This document shows positions 56,912 to 57,953 of a stretch of 64,000 bases of DNA, piece by piece. The notes under the pieces were generated by a model. The model did not search any database, was not told where the DNA came from, and worked only from the letters and a program-made list of their open reading frames with translations. Origin of the DNA: Candidatus Stoquefichus sp. (lineage in GTDB: Bacteria; Bacillota_I; Bacilli_A; Erysipelotrichales; Coprobacillaceae); NCBI GenBank assembly GCA_021768625.1, contig JAETUM010000008.1:1-64000 (forward strand). Direction: 5' to 3'. Position numbers and translations under genes: made by a program. The stretch's first letter is position 1, and every line of letters begins with the position of its first letter.

Positions 56912-57193
56912 TTATTTATGACAGCATTGCTTATGTCGCAATTCTTGTAATGATTCCATAGCATAGATAGCTTTTTCTTTTATGCAGCATTCTAATTGAG
57001 CTATAGCATTGATTGTTTGTTGAACAGATTCATCAATTTCAAGTAATTCTTCTATACAGTTTGTCATACAAACTACTTTTTTTAATTTTTCTGCTTCACC
57101 ATTTAAGATTTGAGCAAGAGCAGCTTCTTGCATTGAAACAGATTGTAAAATTGCAGTTAAAGCACATTTTTCATCAACACAACATTCTTCCAT
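56912..57193 (-). CDS. Cys-rich small helical protein (coat/exosporium-like)
   Basis: 93 residues with nine Cys, mostly in pairs (ECCVDEKC, CMTNC, ECCIKE, QCCH). The centre SVSMQEAALAQILNGEAEKLKKV resembles the E-x2-L-x-x-I-L-N-x-E-x-E-K-L repeat of small Firmicute proteins that occur with spore surface proteins. Start ATG 57193 has GGGAGGTG upstream. No signal peptide. It may be a spore-coat or intracellular Cys-rich scaffold; this is a weak family-level inference. Confidence 0.55.
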   Translation of the reverse strand: MEECCVDEKCALTAILQSVSMQEAALAQILNGEAEKLKKVVCMTNCIEELLEIDESVQQTINAIAQLECCIKEKAIYAMESLQELRHKQCCHK

Positions 57194-57491
57194 GATTTCA
57201 CCTCCCTTTACTTTTACATTATGTAGGAATTGAAAAAACGAAAACGATAAATATCATGTAAATATAGTTATAATTAGAATTATATATAAAAACAAAAAGT
57301 AGTTTTAAAAACAGTATAGGAATTAAAGAGCCATGCTTCAGTGAGAGAATTGTCATAATAAGATATTTTTATATAATGTTTATATTTTGTTTCCCTAAAT
57401 ACTAAGTTATATGTATTTTCAAGCTGTTAGTAAAGTAAATACTATGTGCTAAGTGTGAGATAAGATTTTAGCTTTAATAATACAATGATAT
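57194..57491. other. AT-rich intergenic stretch, nothing supported
   Basis: Between the Cys-rich gene and the candidate RNA promoter I see only the upstream promoter region of the Cys-rich gene (57194-57260) and AT-rich DNA with no open frame, hairpin with T-run or repeat of note. Confidence 0.5.
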
Positions 57492-57520
57492 TTGATAGAT
57501 ATGTAAACTTAAAGTATAGA
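57492..57520 (+). promoter_or_regulatory. Promoter of candidate structured RNA
   Basis: TTGATA (57492-57497), 17-base spacer, TATAGA (57515-57520). A start near 57527 would precede the structured stretch. No open reading frame of useful length follows. Confidence 0.5.
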
Positions 57521-57526
57521 CCTATT

Positions 57527-57730
57527 TTCGAGTAAAAGAAAAAGCCCTTTAAAGACTTGCCAGTAGAAGCATTGTAGTTATCAGGCTTCAAAATATGAAA
57601 ATATTGTAACGTAGTGCCTTTCTAGGGCTGGTATACGCCACCTCTTTTAGGCATGATTATGATAAATAGACAATAATCTTTGTACAAAGATTATATGAGT
57701 TAAATTTCTTATCATGCTTTTCTATTATAC
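57527..57730 (+). ncRNA. Candidate structured non-coding RNA, class unknown
   Basis: About 200 nt with islands of G+C (GGGCTGGTATACGCCACC) in very AT-rich surroundings and no reading frame. Complementary segments: AGCCCT (57543-57548) with AGGGCT (57624-57629); GAAGC (57566-57570) with GCTTC (57585-57589); AATAT-GAAA-ATATT (57592-57605), a GNRA tetraloop hairpin; TGCCT (57615-57619) with AGGCA (57649-57653). The first and last pairings cross, forming a possible pseudoknot. It ends in a hairpin AATCTTT-GTAC-AAAGATT inside a longer GCATGAT / ATCATGC stem and a TTTTCT tract. The minus strand could also form a terminator-like end, so strand is not certain. Not recognised as SRP, tmRNA, RNase P or 6S RNA by eye. 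Confidence 0.5.
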
Positions 57731-57743
57731 AATAGTCATACAA

Positions 57744-57953
57744 TTACTTTTTCTCTTTATTTTTTAGGCATTCGTATGCAAGAAGTATTGTAAATATTAT
57801 ATATAAAGCTAATGAAATGTTTTTAATTGTTGTTCTTATAACTTCTAAGGAACCCTCAAAATTTATTGTTCCTATAAGTTCGGCATGATAAATAACTATC
57901 CACACAACTAGACTCTCAAATGATAAAATAGAATAAAATATTATTTTTTTCAT
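57744..57953 (-). CDS. Small two-helix membrane protein, unknown
   Basis: 69 residues with two hydrophobic helices (about 4-22 and 46-63) and a basic tail (LKNKEKK). Start ATG 57953 follows AGAAAGGAGA. No homologue recognised; it lies downstream of nothing on its strand and faces the candidate RNA tail to tail. Confidence 0.6.
   Translation of the reverse strand: MKKIIFYSILSFESLVVWIVIYHAELIGTINFEGSLEVIRTTIKNISLALYIIFTILLAYECLKNKEKK

Follow-up and report, generated by a model that had tools for sequence, protein, structure and literature searches.

A predicted structured RNA in Candidatus Stoquefichus sp. is very probably the fossil of an IS200-group insertion sequence

Elements of the IS200/IS605 family move as single-stranded DNA, and their Y1 transposases bind a P5-type hairpin at the right end together with a like-stemmed hairpin at the left end (PMC7290912). 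In the IS200 of Salmonella, a stem-loop in the leader hides the ribosome-binding site and the structured 5′ RNA yields a regulatory RNA (PMC12594629). The locus described here compares most directly with this IS200 group (Y1 HUH transposase, PF01797). Its ancestor would have resembled the group in having a single Y1 tnpA and like-stemmed end hairpins, and the ancestral CCTCC/GGAGG repeat of the tnpA leader is comparable to the known stem-loop that hides the ribosome-binding site (PMC12594629). In contrast, the present copy is without a usable tnpA and its end hairpins are broken, while the subgroup to which it belongs has a conserved, structured right end of about 165 nt that starts inside tnpA. 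PATE and other IS200-derived miniature elements are similar in that the ends are kept and the interior is gone. However, the ends of the present copy are decayed, it occurs once and it contains two tnpA scraps from separate places, which is what deletions would leave and not what a mobile miniature element would show. The omega-RNA (reRNA) of TnpB in IS605 and IS607 is comparable in being structured, in overlapping a transposon gene at its 3′ end and in extending as far as the right end, but here the overlapped gene is tnpA and there was no Rfam match. Most of the copies examined sit behind a Y1 tnpA, the rest being decayed or cut by contig ends. None of the copies examined had a visible tnpB next to it, which speaks against an omega-RNA identity; near the present copy there was likewise no tnpB-like ORF.

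The window analysed here is a stretch of 64,000 nucleotides of the Candidatus Stoquefichus sp. genome, in which an independent structured RNA of about 200 nt had been predicted at 57492-57730. Sequence comparisons assigned that segment to the right end of an IS200 element, and the interval 57429-57663 is very probably a dead IS200-group insertion sequence with internal deletions, a fossil copy of about 235 bp (Table 1). We refer to it as a relic because tnpA survives only in scraps. It consists, in this order, of a decayed left end, 34 bp of tnpA, a piece from the 3′ end of tnpA and a complete right end, collinear with intact elements of the same bacterial family, and the two tnpA scraps overlap (57515-57518) because the deletion junction is ambiguous. 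The left boundary lies directly after TGTTA and the right one directly after TTATGAT.

Table 1. Parts of the IS200 relic and the basis on which each was assigned (window coordinates).
Feature	Position	Strand	Basis or state
Left end of the relic (boundary after TGTTA; TATT(A/G) in intact copies)	57429-57476	+	Alignment to left ends of L045/L046/L048
Decayed left-end hairpin, ACTATGTG CTAAG TGTGAGAT	57441-57461	+	Alignment to full-length copies
tnpA scrap, 34 bp	57485-57518	+	Alignment to L046/L048; also own-genome tnpA at C37
tnpA 3′ end scrap, TATAGACC (codons ..I-D-P..)	57515-57530	+	Alignment to L048 and A2
Right end of the relic, closing with TTATGAT	57534-57663	+	BLASTN, 75% to G003; local alignment; covariance model
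Hairpin P1 remnant (AGCCCTTTAAAGACT)	57543-57557	+	3/5 model pairs left
Hairpin P3, AATAT GAAA ATATT	57592-57605	+	4/4 model pairs left
Hairpin P4 remnant, around TGCCT TTCTA GGGC	57614-57630	+	5/6 model pairs left
Decayed terminal right-end hairpin P5	57637-57657	+	6/9 model pairs left; transposase-binding in intact elements

When the window was compared with related genomes by BLASTN, 57534-57666 matched two of them (G003 and G023) with 72-75% identity (E values of 1e-17 and 2e-12). The search in relatives that had been suggested for the RNA did find the segment there, but immediately 3′ of Y1 transposases (PF01797). In G003 the copy sits between recA and rny, immediately downstream of a decayed frame that encodes a Y1_Tnp domain (PF01797), and this version of the right end had BLASTN matches in 18 of 43 genomes of the family, some of which hold several copies. 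Local alignment of 57534-57663 scored 127 against at most 30 in shuffles, and a covariance model of the right end recovered 57543-57663 with 46 bits (E 5e-9). For the left end, 57427-57476 scored 46-52 against L045, L046 and L048, with shuffle means of 20-24; the best score (52) was not reached by shuffles, whose maximum was 28-41 for the two best relatives, although this match is short (42-50 bp) and did not reach significance against every relative. The longer tnpA scrap (ATGATATTTGATAGATATGTAAACTTAAAGTATA) aligned to tnpA, including that of the own genome at C37, and corresponds to codons M-I-F-D-R-H-A-N-L-K-Y of intact copies. A multi-copy RNA, to which apparent repeats in G003 had pointed, was rejected as an identity for the segment: four candidate loci (L032-L034 and L042) were unrelated hairpin sequences and six others (L035-L040) belonged to another repeat that shares about 23 bp. 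A group II intron was also rejected. Its D1-D4 match, accompanied by a reverse-transcriptase fragment, lies near the G023 copy and represents a chance neighbour, because the shared segment has other contexts elsewhere, such as recA-rny in G003.

Eight full-length copies of about 720-760 bp, with unrelated flanks, aligned end to end and shared their boundaries (after TATT(A/G) on the left and after TTATGAT on the right). In the intact copies, the transposase is about 160-170 aa long and contains a complete Y1_Tnp domain (PF01797, E about 1e-35), and matching hairpins (ACCACG...CGTGGT) lie at both ends of the element, the left one reading ACCACGTG CTATG CGCGTGGT. The tnpA leader of full-length copies such as L046 and L048 also contains an inverted repeat, CCTCC...GGAGG, like that of Salmonella IS200. 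A transposase-alignment scan of genome contigs revealed 80 loci, mostly from Bacillota, and a Deltaproteobacterium plasmid holds a further one; database comparison gave no match among phages and one IS200 transposase gene among plasmids. In the own genome there were five Y1_Tnp matches, one of them with an internal stop. An intact right end (C84:1484-1612, minus strand; 89.5 bits with the covariance model) adjoins a tnpA there (C84:1704-2060, minus strand), and two more right-end matches lie near contig ends (C33 and C123), as collapsed repeats do. The relic itself is ordinary in its own genome, and the by-products of the analysis are of more interest.

Further analyses of the relic revealed how far it has decayed. 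It has lost most of tnpA, and neither terminal hairpin is intact. In the left-end hairpin (arms ACTATGTG/TGTGAGAT), 2 of 8 pairs have been lost and most of the others are now G-T. At the right end, 18 of 25 ancestral pairs were kept, compared with 17.7 ± 1.7 when the same 29 substitutions were placed at random on an approximate ancestor built by majority rule from five relatives; a relative, L050, also retains just 19 of 25. Substitutions had accumulated as fast within stems (13 of 50 positions) as outside them (16 of 71), and 16 of the 29 were G>A or C>T. Over all copies the median of retained pairs was 23 of 24, while in the window P5 kept 6 of 9 and P1 3 of 5. Covariance-model scores reached 133 bits in other copies. 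The loss of pairs at a neutral rate, together with the broken P5, P1 and left arms, indicates that the fold is not maintained in the window. Judging from its sequence, TnpA should not recognise this copy; the remnant most likely does nothing, and a transcript crossing it would reflect incidental read-through. The known behaviour of the IS200 family suggests that the ancestor jumped as single-stranded DNA, with TnpA binding the hairpins of both ends and directing insertion to the 3′ side of a short T-rich target. This copy may then have lost tnpA through deletions and drifted towards A+T; its deleted form was seen in no other copy.

The original prediction, an independent and functional RNA gene that has a promoter and a terminator of its own and a pseudoknot, either raiA-like or new, is now extremely improbable. 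What speaks for it is that the motifs do exist, that the region contains no ORF of at least 60 aa, as had been noted, and that the homologous segment is structured and covarying in relatives. The strings of the proposed promoter TTGATA-17-TATAGA are present (57492-57497 and 57515-57520), but they stayed under the cut-off when scanned for the sigma-70 consensus, and the -35 hexamer falls within the longer tnpA scrap and the -10 within the tnpA 3′ end scrap. Similarly, the strings of the supposed pseudoknot (AGCCCT, 57543-57548, with AGGGCT, 57624-57629; TGCCT, 57615-57619, with AGGCA, 57649-57653) could be located, but the crossing stems were not conserved: in a 75-row structural alignment they were paired in 44% and 41% of cells, exactly what column composition predicts, and a crossing 6-bp by 5-bp pair of the same G+C content arose in 3% of dinucleotide shuffles. 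The appearance of a pseudoknot arises because the arms of the different local hairpins P1, P4 and P5 resemble one another in CCC/GGG sequence and mutations have altered their true partners. The GAAGC/GCTTC stem (57566-57570 and 57585-57589) is likewise there as a string, but was paired in 44% of cells against 41% expected from composition. Only the GAAA hairpin corresponded to a real helix, the conserved P3, which was paired in 86% of cells against 62% expected. As for the hairpin-T end, no terminator was found, and the proposed hairpin lies half outside the element, with its 3′ arm (about 57712-57719) beyond the end. The fold of the whole region was unremarkable (z = -1.5; 19 of 200 shuffles folded equally well), and its stem pairs were lost at the neutral rate. 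G+C islands as a sign of structured RNA hold for the relatives, in which the segment is strongly structured and covaries, but not for the window, whose fold shows no maintenance; the covariation expected of the RNA was found in the four local hairpins of intact relatives and not in the crossing stems. raiA, the structured RNA known from Bacillota that had been suggested, was abandoned as an identity: its model (RF03072) had no match in the own genome even at E ≤ 10. No window match reached the gathering score of any Rfam 15 family; at relaxed thresholds the best match near the region had an E value of 0.26, far below its cut-off.

Two other explanations accept an IS200 origin and assign the remnant a present role. 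It could be a living, non-autonomous PATE-like element that consists of ends only and is mobilised in trans by the intact IS200 transposase of the genome. Its left and right ends with almost no tnpA between them give the layout of a PATE-like sequence of Halanaerobium (PMC7290912), and a right end of this kind belongs to an intact IS200 in the own genome. However, the damage to both terminal hairpins described above and the lack of a second copy with this junction in the own genome make mobilisation very improbable. Retention of the right end of a dead element by the host, for instance because it provides an RNA structure or a transcription barrier between the flanking minus-strand ORFs, is also very unlikely. 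The survival of all four pairs of P3 and of five of the six of P4 would be consistent with such a role, as would a good plus-strand promoter match just upstream (57350-57377, 11 of 12 positions), but overall as many pairs were retained as neutrality predicts, substitutions are no slower in stems than elsewhere and there is no terminator-like hairpin on either strand. An inert, internally deleted IS200 copy remains the preferred reading. A false ncRNA candidate has been removed, and the case illustrates a general trap: in AT-rich genomes, the G+C-rich inverted repeats of fossil transposon ends look like RNA genes.

In intact elements, the right ends form four local hairpins, P1, P3, P4 and P5, that run from inside tnpA to the terminus (L045-L160; for example, L085:1330-1497 and L119:1330-1497). 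These hairpins were paired in 95.3% of cells (74.8% when shuffled), for 18 of the 24 pairs at least one sequence had both partners changed, and the covariation score was 0.546 compared with 0.181 for shuffled and at most 0.105 for slid versions. P5 alone was 99.6% paired. The conserved stretch of about 165 nt begins within the coding sequence of tnpA, where the third bases of codons D-P-F-T-G-E (GACCCGTTTACGGGTGAG) are among the most conserved of the gene (ranks 8, 5, 37, 10, 23 and 3 of 129). G-T mismatches outnumbered A-C mismatches on the tnpA sense strand (49 versus 22), an excess that fits a sense-strand structure and does not separate RNA from the transposing DNA strand. A long-range helix, GTTGCG/CGCAAC, was supported in the copies of the family itself and seems to be differently paired in other clades. 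In a subclass of these elements (L089, L090, L093, L095, L098, L099, L132, L135, L150, L152-L154 and L160) the right end is extended by about 80 nt and has additional hairpins between the first one and the core.

As established for Y1 transposases of this family, P5 is the right-end hairpin that TnpA binds, and its likely function is transposition. For P1, P3 and P4, our preferred guess is that they probably form a structured part of the tnpA mRNA at its 3′ side. Whether the living family carries an undescribed RNA in the full sense is a more tentative matter: we regard it as possible, at somewhat less than even chances, that a structured 3′ domain of about 165 nt in IS200 tnpA transcripts, extending from inside tnpA to the right end and widespread in Bacillota, acts as RNA beyond its role as transposase-binding DNA, either by regulating tnpA or by serving a trans-acting protein. 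None of 20 relative loci matched Rfam at the gathering score, and in the papers searched we found no description of such a right end or of a 3′ counterpart of the 5′ RNA, which is not proof of absence. A covarying structure of living IS200 elements that is missing from Rfam bears on how IS200 controls its transposase.

Analysis of the flanks showed that a strict Rho-independent terminator lay close to the insertion point in 37 of 65 left flanks of IS200 elements (upstream of tnpA; L081-L160); the corresponding counts were 4 of 244 for control stretches taken further upstream and 1 of 108 for stretches on the downstream side. In the literature searched, no report of an IS200 preference for sites behind Rho-independent terminators was found. 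Insertion next to terminators bears on the choice of harmless sites by IS200, and both this tendency and the right-end structure are directly testable. The upstream flank of the relic failed the same terminator test. The promoter match upstream of it is of sigma-70 type (TTGTCA-16-TATAAT) with no ORF behind it, and an RNA-seq signal at the relic could be read-through from there. A perfect 22-bp palindrome, ATAATCTTTGTACAAAGATTAT, lies just outside the right end (57673-57694). The relic is flanked by small ORFs on the minus strand, 56912-57193 (93 aa) and 57744-57953 (69 aa), the former of which encodes paired cysteines at both ends (MEECCVDEKC...QCCHK).
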